Source of the DNA: Spirochaetales bacterium
Lineage (GTDB): Bacteria; Spirochaetota; Spirochaetia; UBA9216
DNA: 64,000 nt
Direction of reading: 5' to 3'
Assembly (NCBI GenBank): GCA_016839055.1
Contig: JAEKNX010000002.1
Coordinates: forward strand, 62,001 to 126,000
In this document: positions 2,424-11,495 of the stretch, piece by piece
How positions within the stretch are numbered: position 1 is the first letter of the stretch
How the letters are laid out: each line of letters begins with the position of its first letter
Program-made: the position numbers and the translations under genes
Notes under the pieces: generated by a model
Database searches by the model: none
What the model saw: only the letters and a program-made list of their open reading frames with translations
Told to the model about the DNA's origin: nothing

Positions 2424-3434
2424 TTAAATCCTGATAATATTACCTGCGACAGAGAGCCCTGCCCCCGAGGCTACAGTCAGAACAACATCACCCTTTTTCA
2501 CTCTGCCGCTTTTTATCCCGTCATCGAGTGCCATCGGAACACAGCCTGAACCGGTGTAACCGTACTTATCCATTATCATGAGTGCCTTATTCTCCGGCTG
2601 TCCGAGAACTTTCATGACTTCTCTGATGACGCTTGCATTTATCTGGGTGAAGATAAAGTGATCGATATCATCGAGCCGGAGCCCGGCCTTGGCGGCAAGA
2701 TGCTCCGTAAAAGAAGGCCAAAGCTTCACATTCCTGTCGCCGGGCAGGCGGTTGAGCAGCTGCAGTCCCCATTCTTCGGCTTCGAGCCGTTCATGGGTGA
2801 TCGGCTGCCGCGCTCCGCCCGAATACACTCCTATGTAGTTCCACTGCGTGCCGTCGGCAAGCCTGTGCCCGGTTATGTAACCGGAGTCACTCTTGTCATC
2901 CGTCTTACTGAGGACTACGGCTCCGGCGCCATCGGCGAAGATAGAGTAGCCGAAGGCATCGCCCGGGCGGAAAAAGGCCGGCATGTTGTATACGCCGACT
3001 ATTACTGCGTGTTTTATCTCCGGGTCATAGGCTACCATCCTGGCTCCCACGTCGAGGGCGCTCGTGAAGCTCGCACAGGATGAGGCAACATCGAAGGCGC
3101 CGCAGTTGTGCTCTCCCTTTTGCAGTCGCCCCTGAACAAGGATGGCCGTGGCGGGGGATATATATTCAGGTGTATCAGTTCCTACAATGAAGAGATCTAT
3201 GTCATCAGGAGTAAGCCCGGCGGCCTCGATGGCAGACGCTGCCGCCTTCGTCGAGAAATCGGCAGTTGTTTCATCGATCCCCCGAAGGTGGGCGATGTGC
3301 CGATATCTGATTCCGGTTTTTGCCGCTAGTTTTTCTGTGTCGAATTTGATGTCGGCAAGGCTGCAGACCTCGCTGTTTGATATAGGTTCTCCCGGCACGT
3401 AGGTGCCGGTTCCGCTTATTACCGCTTTATTCAT
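2424..3434 (-). CDS. FabH-like (KAS III family) acyl synthase lacking the catalytic His and Asn
   Basis: 336 aa when started at the ATG at 3434, which has GGAGAGAGG upstream and lies 1 base after the thiolase stop codon (3436-3438). The thiolase fold is clear. The nucleophile Cys is present in FDVASSCASF (near residue 112). The His of the FabH motif PHQAN is replaced by Thr (FTQIN), and the Asn of HGNTS by Tyr (YGYTGSG). FabH uses His and Asn for decarboxylative condensation, so this protein probably does not decarboxylate malonyl-ACP. It may transfer acyl groups or act as a non-catalytic partner of the adjacent thiolase, as PhlA does with PhlC in the PhlACB acyltransferase. It is co-transcribed with the thiolase. 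Family call is firm; reaction is unknown. Confidence 0.85.
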   Translation of the reverse strand: MNKAVISGTGTYVPGEPISNSEVCSLADIKFDTEKLAAKTGIRYRHIAHLRGIDETTADFSTKAAASAIEAAGLTPDDIDLFIVGTDTPEYISPATAILVQGRLQKGEHNCGAFDVASSCASFTSALDVGARMVAYDPEIKHAVIVGVYNMPAFFRPGDAFGYSIFADGAGAVVLSKTDDKSDSGYITGHRLADGTQWNYIGVYSGGARQPITHERLEAEEWGLQLLNRLPGDRNVKLWPSFTEHLAAKAGLRLDDIDHFIFTQINASVIREVMKVLGQPENKALMIMDKYGYTGSGCVPMALDDGIKSGRVKKGDVVLTVASGAGLSVAGNIIRI

Positions 3435-3435
3435 T

Positions 3436-4695
3436 TTAATCCTCTCTCCTAAGAACTGTAACACAATTTGTCACCGCAGACCCTCCGACATTTAAAACAG
3501 CAGCGGTTTGGGGTGTTTTTCCGGCGGGTGACAACCCTATGGGTTCTCCTATCAGTTGTTTATACAGCAGCGCATGCATGGAAACTCCAGTCGCGCCGAC
3601 TGGATGCCCCTTAGCCTTGAGGCCTCCGGAGAGGTTGATTCCGCATTTATCATCCGAACCGAATCTGCCGTCACGGTAATCATAGCCTGATCTGCCGTCT
3701 GCCGAGAGCCCTAGAGCCTCGGTGCAAAGCAGTTGATTGATTGTGAAACAGTCATGCACCTCTGCAATATCTATATCTTTCGCTGTTATTCCGGCTTCAG
3801 CATAGGCCTGACGGGCGGCTTCCTTAGCGGCCATCAGCTCATACATATTCGGCCTCTGGCTGATAGCCAGCCGCTCGGTAGTATGTCCTATTCCCGCTAT
3901 TCTTACCGGCCGGGCGCCGCTTTTTAAGGCTGCGTCTCCGGCTGATAGAACAATAGCTGCCGCGCCGTCTGTTATAAGGGAGCAGTCATGAAGCCTCAGG
4001 GGCTCGGCTATCATCGGGTTCTTTTCCTCCGGCATTCCCAGAATCGCCTCAGCCGAAAAGAGTCCAAGCTTCTCTGGAACCGCGCCCGGTCCGAAGTGGG
4101 CAAGAGGATTCTCCAATGCGTTTCGGTACATGAGCGCGGTTACATGGGCCAGCATTTCGGCCATCTCCCTGTCGTTTATTCCATAATGAGCCTTATAACC
4201 CTTGGCATACTCGGCAAAGAGTCCCGGGAATGTCATTCCCTTTCCGCCTTCTTCCGGCCAGTATGATGAGCAGGCCAGGGCATGGGTCACACCCTTGGTA
4301 TTGAGCAGAGACATTTTCTCGGCACCGATAACAAGAACCCGCTTGTATCGTCCGGATTCAATTCCATAGAGGGCATTGTAGAGGGCGACTGACGAAGACG
4401 CACAGGCGCCTTCAACACGGGTTGCCGGTAGAAAGCGGAAGTCCTCCGGGCATACTTCAACGCCGAGAGGTCCGACATGTTCCTGATTAACAAAGAGGGA
4501 AGGCGAACAGGATCCTATCCATATTGCGTCAATATCCGAGGTTTCTAGTCCCGAATCCTCGACTGCGCCGAGCCCTGCTTCCTTGATGAGGTCATAAAAA
4601 GAGTGAAGGTCGGTTATTTCTCCAGTTTCCCTGTTCTTTTTAGCAAAGGTTCCGAATTTTGTATTATAAGCACCGATAATCGATGTTCGGCTCAT
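3436..4695 (-). CDS. SCP2-type thiolase family protein
   Basis: 419 aa. The nucleophile is Cys98 in RVEGACASSSVAL. The two active-site His blocks are HDCF, near residue 315, and GGLKAKGHPVGATG near 360; the C-terminal block is NVGGSAVTNC. These place it in the SCP-x/acetyl-CoA acetyltransferase branch, not the tetrameric biosynthetic thiolases. Members cleave or form 3-oxoacyl-CoA, or act with a FabH-like partner and a DUF35 protein (PhlACB, archaeal HMG-CoA synthase complexes). The FabH-like partner follows directly, but no DUF35 gene is visible in this window. The promoter at 4748-4776 carries the 14-bp element shared with the hydrolase and Liv promoters. Confidence 0.88.
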   Translation of the reverse strand: MSRTSIIGAYNTKFGTFAKKNRETGEITDLHSFYDLIKEAGLGAVEDSGLETSDIDAIWIGSCSPSLFVNQEHVGPLGVEVCPEDFRFLPATRVEGACASSSVALYNALYGIESGRYKRVLVIGAEKMSLLNTKGVTHALACSSYWPEEGGKGMTFPGLFAEYAKGYKAHYGINDREMAEMLAHVTALMYRNALENPLAHFGPGAVPEKLGLFSAEAILGMPEEKNPMIAEPLRLHDCSLITDGAAAIVLSAGDAALKSGARPVRIAGIGHTTERLAISQRPNMYELMAAKEAARQAYAEAGITAKDIDIAEVHDCFTINQLLCTEALGLSADGRSGYDYRDGRFGSDDKCGINLSGGLKAKGHPVGATGVSMHALLYKQLIGEPIGLSPAGKTPQTAAVLNVGGSAVTNCVTVLRRED

Positions 4696-4729
4696 TTGTT
4701 TCTCCTATATTTTGGGATCTGAGTAAAGA

Positions 4730-4776
4730 GTGAATCATCTCTCATTCAGATTAACGCAAAAAGTCATAACTGTCAA
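4730..4776 (-). promoter_or_regulatory. Thiolase operon promoter with shared 14-bp element
   Basis: On the minus strand TTGACA (4776-4771), 17 bp, TAATCT (4753-4748). Four bases after the -10 box comes GAGAGATGATTCAC (4743-4730), where the transcript would begin. The identical 14-mer occurs at the hydrolase promoter (5748-5735), and a 12/14 match occurs at the Liv promoter (6844-6857), all at nearly the same distance from the -10 box. Confidence 0.65.
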
Positions 4777-4911
4777 ATTTATATTTTGATAATAATTTTT
4801 ATTGATATTTGTAAAATACGGCTTGAAATTGAGACGTGATATAGTTTTAAGGCTGGATAAGCAGTTATAGAGAATATTTTAATTAGCAAATTGCAGGAAA
4901 TTATGGTTGTA

Positions 4912-5718
4912 TTAACTCTTATTAAGGAATCCTGAGATAAGAGTTTTTAGTTCTTCCGGTTTCTCAAAGATGGCTACATGACCACAATTCGGAATTGTAA
5001 AAAACTCACTTCTGTTTATATTTGCAGCGATTATTCTGGAAAAAGACGGCGGTTTCAAGATGTCATCTTCTCCGCATATTACTAGGCTTGGGCAGGTGAT
5101 TTTTTTAAGGTCAGATGTAATATCCAATGTCAGAAATGATTGATAGAGACGAATTTGGCCCGTAAAGTAGTCTTTCGGAATAGCCGTCATCATTTTCTCC
5201 CGTTCTTTAAGCATTTCCATATTCCTGTTAATAAAACTGCTGCTGTAAAGCCAGGGGAGGGCACATCTATAAAAAATGGTACCGTTGCCTGTTTCGGCCG
5301 TGTCGATCCAGGATGAAATTGTCGTCTTTATCAGCGAGTCCAATTCACTTACCGAATCGATTATTACTATTTTCGAAATTATAGCAGGATATTTAATTGC
5401 AAAACATAGAGCGACCTCTCCTCCGTAACTCGTTCCGGCAAGAATAACCTTATCAATTTTGAGTTTTTTAAGAAGAACGGATAAATCCTGGACGTGGTCG
5501 TCAAAGCTTATCTCTTTATCAGGTTTTGAAGATTTAAGCTGCCCCCTGAAGTCATGAAGGAGGATACTGTAACCCATTTTTCTGAAATGATCAGTGAAGT
5601 CGTCCCAGCTTCCTAATGACGCCATTACTCCGTTAAGGAAAACAATTGTGCCCCTGGGGTTATTTTCCTGAAAATATTCGTAGTAGATTTCGGTTTCATT
5701 TATGCTGATTAATGGCAT
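4912..5718 (-). CDS. Alpha/beta hydrolase
   Basis: 268 aa. The full alpha/beta-hydrolase pattern is visible. There is an oxyanion-region GTIVFLNGVMASLGSWDD near residue 25 and the nucleophile elbow GTSYGGE (Ser near 96). The acid loop is VICGEDDILKPPS and the catalytic His is in NCGHVAIFEKPEEL near the C terminus. No signal peptide is seen, so it is cytoplasmic. It resembles MhpC/3-oxoadipate enol-lactonase type esterases or C-C hydrolases, but the substrate cannot be read from sequence. Its promoter carries the same 14-bp element as the thiolase and Liv operons, so it probably works on the same imported compound or a CoA/acid derived from it. Confidence 0.9.
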   Translation of the reverse strand: MPLISINETEIYYEYFQENNPRGTIVFLNGVMASLGSWDDFTDHFRKMGYSILLHDFRGQLKSSKPDKEISFDDHVQDLSVLLKKLKIDKVILAGTSYGGEVALCFAIKYPAIISKIVIIDSVSELDSLIKTTISSWIDTAETGNGTIFYRCALPWLYSSSFINRNMEMLKEREKMMTAIPKDYFTGQIRLYQSFLTLDITSDLKKITCPSLVICGEDDILKPPSFSRIIAANINRSEFFTIPNCGHVAIFEKPEELKTLISGFLNKS

Positions 5719-5734
5719 TTATTCCCCCTAATAA

Positions 5735-5780
5735 GTGAATCATCTCTCGAAATATTAACATCAAGGTTTATATTTAACAA
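5735..5780 (-). promoter_or_regulatory. Hydrolase promoter with shared 14-bp element
   Basis: On the minus strand TTGTTA (5780-5775), 17 bp, TAATAT (5757-5752). GAGAGATGATTCAC (5748-5735) follows three bases later and is identical to the copy at 4743-4730. The rest of the gap up to the TetR gene (5781-6012) is AT-rich and shows no gene that I can support. Confidence 0.6.
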
Positions 5781-6012
5781 GTTTTTTAGTAGCAATTTGG
5801 AATTTGGCTGCAATTATTTAAGTATTCGGCCTGATTTCGATTACTATCTCTATGAAGCGGGTTTAGGGGTTATTCTGAATTAAGCAAAAAGAAAAAAATA
5901 TCAAATATTTAAAATTGAAGATTTTTCTAACCGCTTTCGGGCCGTATAATTCGAATTGCTGTTGACGAGGAAGAGATGGAAATACAAAAAACCTGATTTG
6001 TATCTATGGGAC

Positions 6013-6043
6013 TTCAGGACATCAAAAAGAGTGATGTTCTGAA
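6013..6043 (-). terminator. Hairpin downstream of the TetR gene
   Basis: TTCAGGACATC (6013-6023) pairs with GATGTTCTGAA (6033-6043) over 11 bp with one G-U pair and a 9-base loop. It lies just after the stop of the TetR gene. An alternative stem (CTGAATG / CATTCAG, 6039-6059) overlaps its base. There is no strong U tract. Confidence 0.4.
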
Positions 6044-6051
6044 TGGTCGTA

Positions 6052-6696
6052 TCATTCAGGGAGATTGAATGCACCCTCGCTTATTATCTTCATTACATCT
6101 TCCAGAACCTTTTGGGGTACCGGTTTTTTCTCGAAAATAATCCATTTCAGGGCTATGAAATTTGTAATTCCCATAAGGCAGTATACTAAAGTGGTTGGAT
6201 CATAGTCCTTGACCTCTCCGCTTTTCTGGGCTTTTTTTATACCTACTAAATAATGCTGGGCAAAATTTTCGTAGTACTCCATAAAGGCTTCCTCAATAAC
6301 AAACTGGGCATCCCACACAATACGAAACAGCCCGTTATGCTTGTTTACGAAACTGAAGAAGGTTTCAAATCCCACCTTTTCCTCTTCCTTACGGTTTTTG
6401 CAGTCTACTGTAGCCTCGACAATCTCTTTTCTGAGAGCATGGTTCAGCTCTTCCATAAGGTATCTGAAGATACTCTTTTTATCAGGGAAATATATATAGA
6501 AGGTTCCTGAAGCTACATTAGCAGATTCAACTATTTCGGTAATCTTGGTATTATAAAATCCTTTCTGGCTGAAAAGATCTTCCGCGGCCTTAAGTATACG
6601 TGCAAGTGTTTTTTTGCCGCGTGCCGTTTTTGGCTTATTGATCAGTTCCAGAACGGAAGTGTTAGGTTTTAGGGTATTATGTTCAGTCATGTTCAT
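6052..6696 (-). CDS. TetR/AcrR family transcriptional regulator
   Basis: 214 aa from the ATG at 6696, chosen because GAGG lies 6 bases upstream; longer in-frame starts up to 6741 lack a good site. The N-terminal HTH (about residues 20-75) contains ILKAAEDLFSQKGFYNTKI and the recognition region VASGTFYIYFPDKKSIFRYL, typical of TetR proteins. The C-terminal domain binds an unknown ligand. The gene lies between the hydrolase and Liv operons and is divergent from Liv. It is the best candidate for the protein that reads the shared 14-bp element or the inverted repeat at 6767-6806. The predicted -10 box is only about 17 bp before the ATG, giving a very short leader. Confidence 0.92.
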   Translation of the reverse strand: MNMTEHNTLKPNTSVLELINKPKTARGKKTLARILKAAEDLFSQKGFYNTKITEIVESANVASGTFYIYFPDKKSIFRYLMEELNHALRKEIVEATVDCKNRKEEEKVGFETFFSFVNKHNGLFRIVWDAQFVIEEAFMEYYENFAQHYLVGIKKAQKSGEVKDYDPTTLVYCLMGITNFIALKWIIFEKKPVPQKVLEDVMKIISEGAFNLPE

Positions 6697-6712
6697 GTTA
6701 TTCCTCAAACGA

Positions 6713-6741
6713 TTATTAAACATAAGATTACCTGTTGTCAA
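6713..6741 (-). promoter_or_regulatory. Promoter of the TetR gene
   Basis: On the minus strand TTGACA (6741-6736), 17 bp, TAATAA (6718-6713). The transcript would begin about 10 bases before the ATG at 6696, leaving only the GAGGAA ribosome-binding site in the leader. Confidence 0.5.
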
Positions 6742-6766
6742 TGACCCGAATCATGAATCGAGGTTC

Positions 6767-6806
6767 ATATTTCATTATATTACTATTAAAATCACCAATG
6801 AAATAT
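6767..6806. promoter_or_regulatory. 10-bp inverted repeat between TetR gene and Liv operon
   Basis: ATATTTCATT (6767-6776) and AATGAAATAT (6797-6806) are perfect inverted copies separated by 20 bp. They sit directly upstream of the Liv -35 box (6811). This could be a TetR operator; TetR operators usually have a shorter gap, so a two-dimer or looped arrangement would be needed. Confidence 0.4.
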
Positions 6807-6810
6807 ATTC

Positions 6811-6857
6811 TTGACAGATATAAAAAGCTGTGGGAAAATAACTGAGAGTAGATTCAC
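6811..6857 (+). promoter_or_regulatory. Liv operon promoter with variant of the shared element
   Basis: TTGACA (6811-6816), 17 bp, GAAAAT (6834-6839). After four bases comes GAGAGTAGATTCAC (6844-6857). It matches the element of the thiolase and hydrolase promoters at 12 of 14 positions, in the same orientation and at the same distance from the -10 box. Confidence 0.6.
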
Positions 6858-6884
6858 GTTTCATTTGCAAAATAGGAGGCTAAT

Positions 6885-8117
6885 ATGAAAAGTGGGATAA
6901 AAACCTTAGTTTTGGTTCTTATGATTTTATTGATTAGTACCGCTTTATTCGCGGGCGGACAGAGTGAAGAGGGTGTCAAGCCTATTAAGCTTGGTGGTGT
7001 GTGGCCCCTGGCTGACATTACAGGAGAACAGGGAAGTAAATCCGCACAGCTCGCAGTTGATGAGATTAATGCAGCCGGAGGTCTTCTTGGACGTCCTGTA
7101 GAACTTATTGTTATTGACAGCGAATTTAAACCGGAGAAGGGCGCAGCAGCAATTGATCGTCTTGCGACCATCGAAAATGTAGATGTCTTCTTAGGCGGAA
7201 TGTCCAGTGGAGTTCATCTTGGACAGATTCCTACTTTGAAGAAATACAAAAAGGTAACTGTATGGACCGGAGCCGCTTCAGGAAGAGCTGAAGAAGCCAT
7301 GGGTCCCGACGCGGCCTGGTACTTTCACCTGCACCCATGGGATTACAATCAGGGTGCGAGCTATGTAGAAGGCTGGGAGGCTATAGGGGCAAAGTACCCT
7401 GACCTGGCCACTGCCAAATGGTTTATGGCATATGAAGAGGGTGCTTTCGGAACCGCGTCTTTCAACAACTGGGTAGAGCTTTGGGGTGATAACGGAATTG
7501 TTGAAGGCGAATCATTTACCAGTGCCGCTTTCGGCGGAGGTGATTACAGCGCAGTTCTCGAACATGCAAAAGAGGCGAATCCCGATATTTTCGTCTGGGC
7601 AGGCTATGCCGCTGATGCTCTTCCTATGATGGAACAGACAAAGGCCGTTGGTTTTGAACCGAAAACATACATAGGTTCTCCTCCGGGTTGGCCCAGTGAT
7701 TTTGGCGACTCTCCCCTTGCCGAGAATGTCATGTTTTACGGTATGTGGACTCCTGAAATGAATAAGATCAACAAGATAAGTAAGCATTACTATGATGCAT
7801 ATGTGAAAAAATATAAAGCTACTCCTGAAACATACTTTGCTCCTCTTGGTTATACAGCCGTCTATATTATTGCTGAAGCTATTAAGAGAGCCGGGACAGT
7901 TGAAACCGAAGCTCTTATTAAAGCTCTTGAGGCAACCGCTTATGAATCTCCCCTAGGTGAAACCATTACCTTCGGACCTTCCAACATCATTCAGCATCAG
8001 GGAATCAGAAGACAGAAGATAATTCAGTGGCAGAATGATAAACAGGAAATAATCTGGCCTTTTGAATACAAGACCTCTGATCCTGTGTATCCATTTCCTT
8101 CCTGGAATAAACGATAA
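6885..8117 (+). CDS. Liv-type ABC transporter substrate-binding protein
   Basis: 410 aa. An N-terminal signal peptide (about residues 1-23) ends in LFAGGQSEE, so the protein is exported. The mature part is a type I periplasmic binding fold of the branched-chain amino-acid/amide family: KLGGVWPLADITGEQGSK, then LAVDEINAAGGLLGRPVELI, then repeated alpha/beta units. These proteins deliver branched-chain amino acids, amides, urea or aromatic acids to a LivHMGF importer. The four importer genes follow, after a hairpin at 8171-8195 that may keep binding-protein mRNA more abundant. The regulatory link to thiolase and hydrolase genes argues against plain leucine uptake; an acyl or aromatic acid is possible (inference). 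AGGAGG lies 7 bases before the ATG. Confidence 0.92.
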   Translation: MKSGIKTLVLVLMILLISTALFAGGQSEEGVKPIKLGGVWPLADITGEQGSKSAQLAVDEINAAGGLLGRPVELIVIDSEFKPEKGAAAIDRLATIENVDVFLGGMSSGVHLGQIPTLKKYKKVTVWTGAASGRAEEAMGPDAAWYFHLHPWDYNQGASYVEGWEAIGAKYPDLATAKWFMAYEEGAFGTASFNNWVELWGDNGIVEGESFTSAAFGGGDYSAVLEHAKEANPDIFVWAGYAADALPMMEQTKAVGFEPKTYIGSPPGWPSDFGDSPLAENVMFYGMWTPEMNKINKISKHYYDAYVKKYKATPETYFAPLGYTAVYIIAEAIKRAGTVETEALIKALEATAYESPLGETITFGPSNIIQHQGIRRQKIIQWQNDKQEIIWPFEYKTSDPVYPFPSWNKR

Positions 8118-8170
8118 TCTTCTGAGAATCGTCCGGAAGATAGCCTGATTAAATTAAATTAAACAACTTG

Positions 8171-8198
8171 CAGCCGGGTTCTAAAAGCCCGGCTGTTT
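8171..8198 (+). terminator. Intra-operon hairpin after the binding-protein gene
   Basis: CAGCCGGG (8171-8178) and CCCGGCTG (8188-8195) form an 8-bp GC stem followed by TTTAA. Such partial terminators between a binding protein and its permease usually lower downstream expression or stabilise the upstream message. Confidence 0.6.
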
Positions 8199-8215
8199 AA
8201 AATGGAGAAATAAAT

Positions 8216-9148
8216 ATGGCGGAGAGAATTTTAAAACGTCCTCTGTATATCATTGTCGGTCTGCTCAGTGCAGCTGTCATTGTTCTATTACTGTTCTGGA
8301 AACCGACAGTGGTGGTCTATGGTGTTCAGAGAGCGGGTCTTTATGCGGGCATCGCCCTGCCTATGGCTCTGATACTTGGGATTGTGCATATTGTAAATTT
8401 GGCCCACGGCGAGTTCATGATAACAGCGGCTTACATCACATATTTTTTATGCAACTCTTTCGGTATGAGCCCGTTTGCGGCCCTGGTGCCTGTAGTTATT
8501 GTGATGTTTTTACTTGGCATGCTGATATTCAAGTTTACCATTAAGCATACCCTGAAGGCGCCTGAGCTTAATCAGCTTATTCTTACTTTTGGACTAGCAA
8601 TGGTGTTGACACAGGGTCTTAACCTGATTGCGACTTCCCAACCACGAAAAATATCACTTGATTTTGTTACATCTTCCGCCACCGTGGGAGAAACAACCTT
8701 CGGTACCTATGGTTTTATATATGATCTTGCTGCCGTATTGATCCTGGCAGGACTGCTTTTTTTTCTGAGAAAAACAAAGTTCGGAAAAGCGGCGGTGGCT
8801 GTGGGGCAGAACCCGAGAGGGGCGAGAATAATCGGAATAGATGTAAATAAGATCTATATCCTTGTTTTCAGCCTGGCTATCGCCTTAACCGGAATAATGG
8901 GAGTTTTATTTCTGACAAGTCAATCCATCTTCCCCCTGGCCGGAGGCTCTTATACTATGAAGTCATTCTGTCTTGTTGCCATGGCCGGAATGGGAAGCCT
9001 TCCGGGAATTGTCTTTGCAAGTATTGGTCTGGGAATTGCTGAAAGTTTTATTATGTCCTTTCAGGGATATGGTGGATGGTCGAATATTGTTTTCTTTGCC
9101 CTCATTATAATTGTCATTTTAATTAAGTCATTTAAGGGGAAACGATAA
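8216..9148 (+). CDS. livH: Liv-type ABC transporter permease (LivH)
   Basis: 310 aa, about eight hydrophobic segments. The LivH signature GIALPMALILGIVHIVNLAHGEFMI (about residues 45-65) and the coupling-helix region GQNPRGARIIGIDVNKIYI are present, as is the conserved AMAGMGSLPGIVFA near residue 255. It is an inner-membrane subunit that forms the translocation path with LivM. GGAGAA precedes the ATG, and the stop overlaps the LivM start by one base. Confidence 0.92.
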   Translation: MAERILKRPLYIIVGLLSAAVIVLLLFWKPTVVVYGVQRAGLYAGIALPMALILGIVHIVNLAHGEFMITAAYITYFLCNSFGMSPFAALVPVVIVMFLLGMLIFKFTIKHTLKAPELNQLILTFGLAMVLTQGLNLIATSQPRKISLDFVTSSATVGETTFGTYGFIYDLAAVLILAGLLFFLRKTKFGKAAVAVGQNPRGARIIGIDVNKIYILVFSLAIALTGIMGVLFLTSQSIFPLAGGSYTMKSFCLVAMAGMGSLPGIVFASIGLGIAESFIMSFQGYGGWSNIVFFALIIIVILIKSFKGKR

Positions 9149-10077
9149 TGATTAAGTATTGGAAATATATACTAATAGCAATAATTCTGCTTCTGGGAGT
9201 CTTGTTTCCCTTCTACGCCGGAGCATATCAGCAGTCTATCGCGCGGACGGTTTTAATCTATCTTGTTCTTGCCATAAGCTGGGACATGCTCCTCCGCTCG
9301 GGCCAATTGTCTTTCGGTATGGCGGGCCTTTTCGGTATCGGTTCATATGCTTCGGTTCTGCTGCTGCTTCGTTTGGGTGCCAGCCCCATGTTGTCGATTC
9401 TCGGAGCGGGATTGGTTGCTTTTGTAGTGGCAGCCTTACTCGGGATTCTTGTCCTCCGGCTTCGGGCAATGTATTTTGCGATAACTACCCTTGCAATCGG
9501 TGAGATATTCAGAATCATCATCAGGAACTGGTCAAGTTTTACCGGCGGCCCGGAGGGAGCAATTCTTCCGAACATTATATTTGACGGGGATCCGGTGTTA
9601 TCATACTGGCTTGTTTTAGGTCTTGCTCTGCTTGCAATTGTTTTATCTGTTATTTTTCAAAAAACAAGAATATATTTCGCTCTTACTGCAATAAGAAACA
9701 ATGAGGTCGTCGCAAAATCAAGCGGAATTAATATCTTTAAATATCTTGTAATAGTTTTTGCTATTACATCAGCCCTGCAGGGAATGGCCGGAGGTGTTTT
9801 TGCCCAGACCTACGGATTCGTTACGCCGGAGAGCAGCTTCAGCGCTGATTATATTCTTCTGCCCATAGCAATGGCCTTACTCGGTGGTATCTACGGAACC
9901 CTTGGACCCATAATTGGTACTGTGCTGCTAGGCGTACTGGCGGAATATCTGAAATTATACATTCCATATGGTCATCTCATTGTGTATGGAATAATAATTA
10001 TCTGTATCATTATGTTTATGCCTCAGGGAATTGTCGGGGTAGTGAGATCTAAAATAATAAGGAGGGAGGTGGGATGA
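9148..10077 (+). CDS. livM: Liv-type ABC transporter permease (LivM)
   Basis: 309 aa with about eight to ten TM segments. LivM hallmarks are SGQLSFGMAGLFGIGSYAS near residue 50, FRIIIRNWSSFTGGPEGA near 115, and the coupling region ALTAIRNNEVVAKSSGINIFKYL near 185. It pairs with LivH in the inner membrane. It starts at the A of the LivH stop (TAATG) and overlaps livG by 4 bases, indicating translational coupling. Confidence 0.92.
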   Translation: MIKYWKYILIAIILLLGVLFPFYAGAYQQSIARTVLIYLVLAISWDMLLRSGQLSFGMAGLFGIGSYASVLLLLRLGASPMLSILGAGLVAFVVAALLGILVLRLRAMYFAITTLAIGEIFRIIIRNWSSFTGGPEGAILPNIIFDGDPVLSYWLVLGLALLAIVLSVIFQKTRIYFALTAIRNNEVVAKSSGINIFKYLVIVFAITSALQGMAGGVFAQTYGFVTPESSFSADYILLPIAMALLGGIYGTLGPIIGTVLLGVLAEYLKLYIPYGHLIVYGIIIICIIMFMPQGIVGVVRSKIIRREVG

Positions 10078-10793
10078 GCAAACTAGTAGTTAAATCTTTA
10101 ACAAGAAGATTCGGCGGTCTTGTAGCCGTTGATAATCTGGATTTTGAACTTGGTAATGGCGAAATAGTTGGAATAATCGGTCCTAACGGAGCCGGTAAAA
10201 CCACCCTCATCAACCTGATATCGGGAATATGTATGCCGACGAGCGGCAGTATTCTTTTTGATGATAAGGATATTACCCTTACTCCTGCCCATATAAGAAG
10301 CAGAATGGGAATCGGCAGAACATTCCAGCTAATACATCCCCTTGAAAATTTATCCCTTATTGAAAACATAATGACCGGATTTCTTTTCAGCCAGGGAGAA
10401 AATAAAAAGAAAGCCAGGCTTCGTGCCGAAGACCTATGCGCTCTCATGAATCTCACCGATACCGGCCGTGAGATATCCCAGCTGAATATTCTTGAGATGA
10501 AGAAGATGGAGATTGCCCACGCACTTGCTACCGGTCCCAGCATACTTTTTCTTGACGAGGTAATGGCCGGCCTTAATTCCGATGAGACAAAGGAAATAAT
10601 TAAGATAGCAAAGAAAATTGCTTCCAGCCACAATATGGCCATCGGGGTTGTTGAGCATGTCATGGGAGTAATCAAGGAGCTTACTGAGAGAGTTATCGTC
10701 CTGGATTCAGGTAAGCTGATCGCCAAAGGCGTCTACGAAGAAGTATCCAAAGACCCGAAGGTTATAACGGCTTACCTTGGAGGAGCAGCATAG
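10074..10793 (+). CDS. livG: Liv-type ABC transporter ATPase (LivG)
   Basis: 239 aa. Walker A GPNGAGKTT (near residue 38), Q-loop region FQLIHPLENLSLIENI, Walker B ILFLDEVMAGL and H-loop GVVEHVM are clear. The ABC signature normally LSGGQ/LSYGQ is replaced by LNILEMKKMEIAHAL, a degenerate form also met in some other LivG proteins. AGGAGG lies before the ATG, inside the end of livM. It couples ATP hydrolysis to transport with LivF on the cytoplasmic side. Confidence 0.92.
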   Translation: MSKLVVKSLTRRFGGLVAVDNLDFELGNGEIVGIIGPNGAGKTTLINLISGICMPTSGSILFDDKDITLTPAHIRSRMGIGRTFQLIHPLENLSLIENIMTGFLFSQGENKKKARLRAEDLCALMNLTDTGREISQLNILEMKKMEIAHALATGPSILFLDEVMAGLNSDETKEIIKIAKKIASSHNMAIGVVEHVMGVIKELTERVIVLDSGKLIAKGVYEEVSKDPKVITAYLGGAA

Positions 10794-11495
10794 ATGTTAG
10801 AGATAAATGGAATAGACTGCTATTACGGTAAATTGCATGTCCTTAGAAATCTCTCTTTTAAAATTGGAGATGAAGCTGTGGGTCTGTTCGGTCCTAACGG
10901 CGCGGGAAAAACTACTTTGATAAATGCAATAATAAGCCTGATTAAACCAGCTGCGGGAGATATTATTTTTGACGGCGAGAATATCACTACCAGCGAGACT
11001 CACACAATAGCAAAAAAAGGGATTGCGCTGGTTCCTCAGGAAAGGGAACTTTTTCCGGAGATGACGGTTTATGAAAACCTTGAGCTTGGGGCGGCATTCA
11101 TTCCCCATGTTAAAAACAGGACTGCTGAAAGACTTGAGTTTGTGTATAATTTTTTTCCTGTATTAAAAGAACGGGAAAAACAGCATGCAGGAACCATGAG
11201 CGGTGGGCAGCAGAGAATGCTTGCCATAGGACGGGCTCTTATGGCCGATCCTAAGCTGCTGATTCTTGATGAACCCTCCCTGGGGCTTCAGCCCTCCATC
11301 GTGTCGGAACTTTTTGAAAAACTTGCAGAGATGAAAAAGCATATTTCCGTTCTTGTAACCGAGCAGAATGTAAGGGAAAGTCTTAAATCCGTTGACCGTG
11401 GTTATGTTCTTGAAAATGGTGAAATAGCTTTAGAAGATACCGCCGAAAATCTGAAGAGCAATCCTCATGTTATCAAGGCTTATCTTGGAATTTAG
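10794..11495 (+). CDS. livF: Liv-type ABC transporter ATPase (LivF)
   Basis: 233 aa. Walker A GPNGAGKTT (near residue 36), a canonical signature MSGGQQRMLAIGRAL, Walker B LLILDEPSLGL and switch region VLVTEQN are present. It starts directly after the livG stop. In this LivG/LivF pair only LivF has a canonical signature, so the two ATP sites may be unequal. Last gene of the operon; a terminator follows at 11518. Confidence 0.92.
   Translation: MLEINGIDCYYGKLHVLRNLSFKIGDEAVGLFGPNGAGKTTLINAIISLIKPAAGDIIFDGENITTSETHTIAKKGIALVPQERELFPEMTVYENLELGAAFIPHVKNRTAERLEFVYNFFPVLKEREKQHAGTMSGGQQRMLAIGRALMADPKLLILDEPSLGLQPSIVSELFEKLAEMKKHISVLVTEQNVRESLKSVDRGYVLENGEIALEDTAENLKSNPHVIKAYLGI

Follow-up and report, generated by a model that had tools for sequence, protein, structure and literature searches.

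A conserved 21-bp element at uptake, hydrolase and thiolase promoters in a Spirochaetales genome, and a single-chain double-TetR protein as its probable reader

A 64,000-nucleotide stretch of a Spirochaetales genome of 5.0 Mb (C43:62001-126000, here called the window) has one short element downstream of the -10 boxes of a thiolase-FabH operon, an alpha/beta-hydrolase gene and a Liv importer operon. Is this element a real control site and, if so, which protein reads it?

Three promoters of the window

The SCP2-type thiolase (3436-4695, minus strand; Pfam/NCBIfam) and the FabH-like beta-ketoacyl synthase III (2424-3464, minus strand; Pfam) share one promoter. The former has 64-68% relatives in genomes that carry a double-TetR protein (dTetR, described below), and the latter has 53-64% relatives next to dTetR elsewhere. 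The alpha/beta hydrolase (4912-5718, minus strand; Pfam/NCBIfam), whose best NCBIfam match was PcaD, below cut-off, and the importer operon of livK-H-M-G-F type (6885-11495, plus strand) have relatives in dTetR clusters at 37-40% and 53-66%, respectively. A TetR-family gene (6052-6696, minus strand) lies between the hydrolase gene and the Liv operon; the closest solved structure to its product is SaFadR, and this local regulator probably does not read the element. A DUF2148 ferredoxin-domain gene (1788-2321) adjoins the thiolase operon, and a 66% relative of it flanks the merged cluster of sister genome G004 (L128:4325-4858).

The 14-mer GAGAGATGATTCAC was present exactly at 4743-4730 and 5748-5735 (both minus strand) and as a 12/14 version at 6844-6857 (plus strand), and a promoter with a 17-bp spacer preceded each copy, the 14-mer starting 3-4 bp past the -10 box; both points agree with the preliminary description. 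The predicted promoters are TTGACA-17-TAATCT for the thiolase-FabH operon (4748-4776, minus strand), TTGTTA-17-TAATAT for the hydrolase gene (5752-5780, minus strand) and TTGACA-17-GAAAAT for the Liv operon (6811-6839, plus strand). The 14 bp proved to be the core of a motif of ~21 bp, TGAGAGnTGATTCAYnnnTYA, which has an extra T at the 5′ end and a T-Y-A further downstream, the latter found in all three window sites. In this register the motif begins one base before the 14-mer, 2-3 bp past the -10 box. The candidate operators are operator 1, TGAGAGATGATTCACTCTTTA, at the SCP2-thiolase/FabH promoter (4724-4744, minus strand; no mismatch to the extended motif, and conserved at the orthologous G004 thiolase promoter), operator 2, CGAGAGATGATTCACTTATTA, at the hydrolase promoter (5729-5749, minus strand; one mismatch) and operator 3, TGAGAGTAGATTCACGTTTCA, at the livK promoter (6843-6863, plus strand; one mismatch). 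Apart from these three sites at 0-1 mismatch, the window held no match to the extended motif under 3 mismatches.

Repetition of the 14-mer was weak evidence when taken alone, because by an arithmetic estimate 64 kb should contain ~15 exact 14-bp pairs and the 10 window matches at ≤3 mismatches showed no excess over the 7.5 found in shuffles. The repeat by itself was therefore dropped as proof, and the case had to rest on data outside the window.

A second gene cluster and the double-TetR protein

The 16-mer AATGAGAGNTGATTCA occurred exactly only four times in the whole genome: at operator 1 and at three promoters of a second gene cluster on the same contig, ~66-76 kb away. These three copies, each straight after a promoter, include a third exact 14-mer at C43:142791 and 12/14 versions at C43:134261 and 136237; they precede an SDR gene, a second livK operon and a CoA-transferase gene. 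In addition, a weaker, reversed copy of the element precedes a second CoA-transferase gene. The extended motif had 9 matches genome-wide, 6 of them at promoters; the match at C43:13787 overlaps what reads as a start codon. The 39 genome matches at ≤2 mismatches were rejected as a set of regulon members, most of them lying inside long open frames.

The second Liv operon ends with the gene for dTetR, a protein of 376 aa (contig 141.6-142.7 kb) encoded outside the window, 73 kb downstream. It has two TetR_N stretches in one polypeptide, an architecture of the Mce3R type. AlphaFold modelled a dTetR ortholog of the G004 type as a single chain with pLDDT 91 and pTM 0.88; the best full-length fold match of the model was Mce3R, a loose one (TM 0.55, rmsd 8.8 Å, ~15% identity). 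The C-terminal half is 29% identical to the window TetR, with a similar recognition helix, and also matches SaFadR. Against the NCBIfam FadR cut-off of 200 bits, dTetR scored 53 bits and the window TetR 43 bits, both below it. Full-length relatives of dTetR were present in 19 of 393 phylum genomes, this one included. Among 19 aligned dTetRs the recognition helix of the N-terminal half, SNGx[FY]Y, is invariant and that of the C-terminal half is more variable; this alignment is the best basis for judging helix conservation, since the 80 dTetR loci considered below were found partly through the conserved SNG peptide.

In the same cluster a single 568-aa frame joins a LivM-type permease to an alpha/beta hydrolase domain (L031:13907-15613, that is, C43:139907-141613). 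Pfam confirmed the same fusion in locus L169; L128, L160, L164 and L171 have LivM genes of comparable length. A long inverted repeat (ATCAGATCATGAAAC...GTTTCATGATCTGAT) lies upstream of the HMGS-like gene at L031:6826-6885.

Conservation of the element and its association with dTetR

In G004, whose dTetR is 60% identical, a single merged locus unites the thiolase-FabH genes with the second cluster. The preliminary description had made its case depend on the element being kept at orthologous promoters, and exact copies were found at the thiolase and SDR promoters of G004. Four genomes of the same family that lack a dTetR match had no exact copy of the element. The dTetR locus of G005 (39% identity, short contig) had no clear element, and 1-mismatch matches in G005, G006 and G004:C295 were rejected as sites because of their coding or unrelated positions. 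In 19 further dTetR loci, as far as the contigs reach, relatives of the window genes accompany dTetR; the families represented are FabH (53-64%), SCP2 thiolase (65-68%), livK1-type importer, alpha/beta hydrolase, HMGS-like KAS III, SDR and CoA-transferase. The livK1-type promoters of G209 and L253 likewise bear the element. In G209, livK and an HMGS-like gene have sites upstream that are unlinked to dTetR, as does a thiolase gene in G251.

The exact core TGAGAGNTGATTCA was found in 15 of 19 dTetR-positive genomes, mostly directly beside dTetR, compared with 30 of 374 dTetR-negative genomes (Fisher p=2e-12); the other four dTetR-positive genomes had element copies only at 1-3 mismatches. A scan of named genomes yielded 80 dTetR loci, mostly from Spirochaetota with others from Acidobacteriota/Holophagaceae and Thermotogota; two cultured strains, Geothrix fermentans DSM 14018 (L316) and Marinitoga lauensis (L291), have both dTetR and the element. 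Within ~600 bp upstream of dTetR, the element was present exactly in 41 of 79 loci and at ≤1 mismatch in 61 of 79. At ≤1 mismatch the controls gave far fewer matches: the reversed pattern had 0/79 and shuffled patterns 0/1975, and windows taken elsewhere in these loci had 8/1090. These genomes are not independent of one another; of 40 aligned dTetRs, 24 are <60% identical to each other. Altogether, 69 of the 80 loci contained 118 sites, nearly all at cluster promoters, and the genes behind them are nearly all HMGS-like, SDR, thiolase, livK, hydrolase, CoA-transferase or dTetR genes. A logo of 116 sites, ARTGAGAGnTGATTCAYnnnTYA, has a strong left part and a weak mirror half. In this genome and in G004, where dTetR lies within an operon, no site directly precedes it, so that the evidence for an association comes there from the cluster as a whole. 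These findings confirmed that the element is a real control site found across phyla.

The preliminary description had joined two ideas: that uptake, hydrolase and thiolase genes form one regulon with a shared operator, and that the window TetR is its regulator. The first is supported by the conservation of the element at orthologous promoters and by its tracking of dTetR clusters across genomes. The second is probably wrong: only 4 of the 393 phylum genomes sampled, this one included, yielded an ortholog of the window TetR, and the element follows dTetR instead.

Reader of the element and proposed mechanism

Very likely, dTetR is a single-chain double-TetR repressor that has the element as its operator; it would be released by a CoA-ester and would control a shared uptake, hydrolase and CoA-ester pathway. 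We infer binding of dTetR to the element, the assignment of its halves to the two sides, repression and a ligand as follows. The N-terminal half, with its near-invariant recognition helix, would read the strictly conserved TGAGAG/TGA side, and the C-terminal half, with its more variable helix, would read the weak mirror half TCAnnnnTYA; the lopsided motif is paralleled by a protein with one invariant and one more variable helix. Since the site overlaps the predicted transcription start or follows it closely, bound dTetR would block RNA polymerase. Position over the predicted start and occurrence in both orientations fit a roadblock repressor, although dTetR could instead act as an activator. 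Release of dTetR would be brought about by an intermediate of the pathway, for which an acyl-CoA or a keto-acid CoA-ester is the likeliest candidate, and would co-induce Liv import, hydrolysis, the thiolase/KAS III/SDR/CoA-transferase steps and dTetR itself. The nearest NCBIfam model to the CoA-transferases was butyryl-CoA:acetate transferase, below cut-off, and the HMGS-like gene matched PRK06840 above cut-off; judging from such gene assignments, a pathway via a short-chain or keto-acid CoA-ester is plausible.

It is possible, though unlikely, that both proteins read the element, with dTetR acting as repressor throughout the regulon and the window TetR joining it locally at overlapping half-sites (TGATTCA, TGAA/TTCA). 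The recognition helices of the dTetR C-terminal half and the window TetR are related, and element-like sites in G329 overlap a TATGAA-N6-TTCATA palindrome. However, in the window the corresponding ATGAA-N6-TTCAT palindrome, ATGAATCGAGGTTCAT (6753-6768), is 75 bp from operator 3 and has no second copy in the window, which leaves operators 1 and 2 without one. This palindrome is a candidate separate operator, through which the window TetR probably controls itself and livK. Loci of window-TetR orthologs (G000, G004 and G329, with remote ones in G002, G310 and G365) bear ATGAA-N5/6-TTCAT palindromes, with N6 arms at the G004 and G329 orthologs.

The window TetR is improbable as the chief regulator of the three promoters. 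The location of its gene, its likeness to SaFadR and to the dTetR C-terminal half, and a G329 ortholog near two degenerate element copies would favour such a role; however, the protein is missing from most element-bearing genomes, its ortholog locus in G004 has no element, and its loci have the other palindrome in common. Still less probable is a core-promoter or 5′-leader (RNA) signal, such as one read by an alternative sigma factor. The element does lie directly past the -10 box, inside the likely transcript, but its distance from the -10 box varies over ~0-15 bp, it occurs in both orientations and is reversed at dTetR promoters, ordinary TTGACA/TATAAT-like boxes are present, and it tracks dTetR. 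A chance repeat, in keeping with the pair and shuffle counts in the window, is contradicted by the genome-wide and cross-genome statistics on the 16-mer, the extended motif and dTetR association, and can be set aside.

The operator of Bacillus FadR (YsiA), a protein that has the TetR fold in common with dTetR, is TGAATGANTANTCATTCA. It resembles operator 1 read as TGAATGAGAGATGATTCA, a likeness that holds for operator 1 only. A Bacillus FadR-type palindrome was rejected as the general element, being derived from operator 1 and not general.

The dTetR protein resembles Mce3R (about 400 aa) of Mycobacterium tuberculosis in having two TetR halves in one chain. Mce3R is a double TetR-family repressor with an asymmetric operator and two sites per intergenic region (PMC11667970; PDB 9b7y), and the lopsided motif found here is consistent with binding of dTetR, too, to an asymmetric operator. 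Mce3R controls lipid uptake and metabolism, and the dTetR clusters combine uptake and CoA-ester genes. The operators differ, however, in sequence and in the recognisable weak mirror half seen here, and the hosts belong to different phyla. For dTetR, the predicted regulon consists of Liv ABC, KAS III, thiolase and CoA-transferase genes rather than mce genes; with ~15% identity and other gene families behind the sites, dTetR was not classed as an Mce3R ortholog. SaFadR of Sulfolobus acidocaldarius is reported to repress a lipase and beta-oxidation gene cluster and to be released by acyl-CoA (PMC6449355; PDB 6el2/6en8). It is a sequence relative of the dTetR C-terminal half and of the window TetR, and by this similarity these proteins may respond to acyl-CoA as well; it is a single-domain homodimer on a 16-bp dyad-symmetric site, whereas dTetR is a single-chain double protein, and the abstract of the SaFadR paper names no Liv importer (PMC6449355).

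No earlier description of GAGAGATGATTCA was found in the literature searched, and Mce3R was the only natural double-TetR regulator there; because few subscription papers were within reach of the search, novelty is a provisional judgement. Together with its relatives in Spirochaetota, Acidobacteriota and Thermotogota, dTetR probably forms an undescribed family of single-chain double-TetR repressors that keeps one lopsided 21-bp operator across phyla and controls an uncharacterised import-and-cleavage pathway for carboxylic or keto acids, including the permease-hydrolase fusion. Experimental knowledge of double-TetR proteins comes almost solely from Mce3R, and dTetR would be a second, well-populated family. 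Since its operator is sharply defined, with >100 natural sites, the idea of a pseudo-dimer with two different recognition helices on a lopsided operator is directly testable. The presence of importer, hydrolase, KAS III-like, thiolase and CoA-transferase genes in one regulon offers a handle on the substrate.

Three genomes showed variant arrangements. G383 has two dTetR paralogs (L166 and L170), each with its own cluster and its own element. In Marinitoga lauensis, two tandem element copies 21 bp apart precede an SDR gene (L291:263-297). G002 (L231) has a parallel cluster of thiolase, SDR, HMGS-like, Liv and CoA-transferase genes in which a single TetR replaces dTetR and a TGAATAAAGTTCA palindrome follows the -10 box, an apparent regulator swap.
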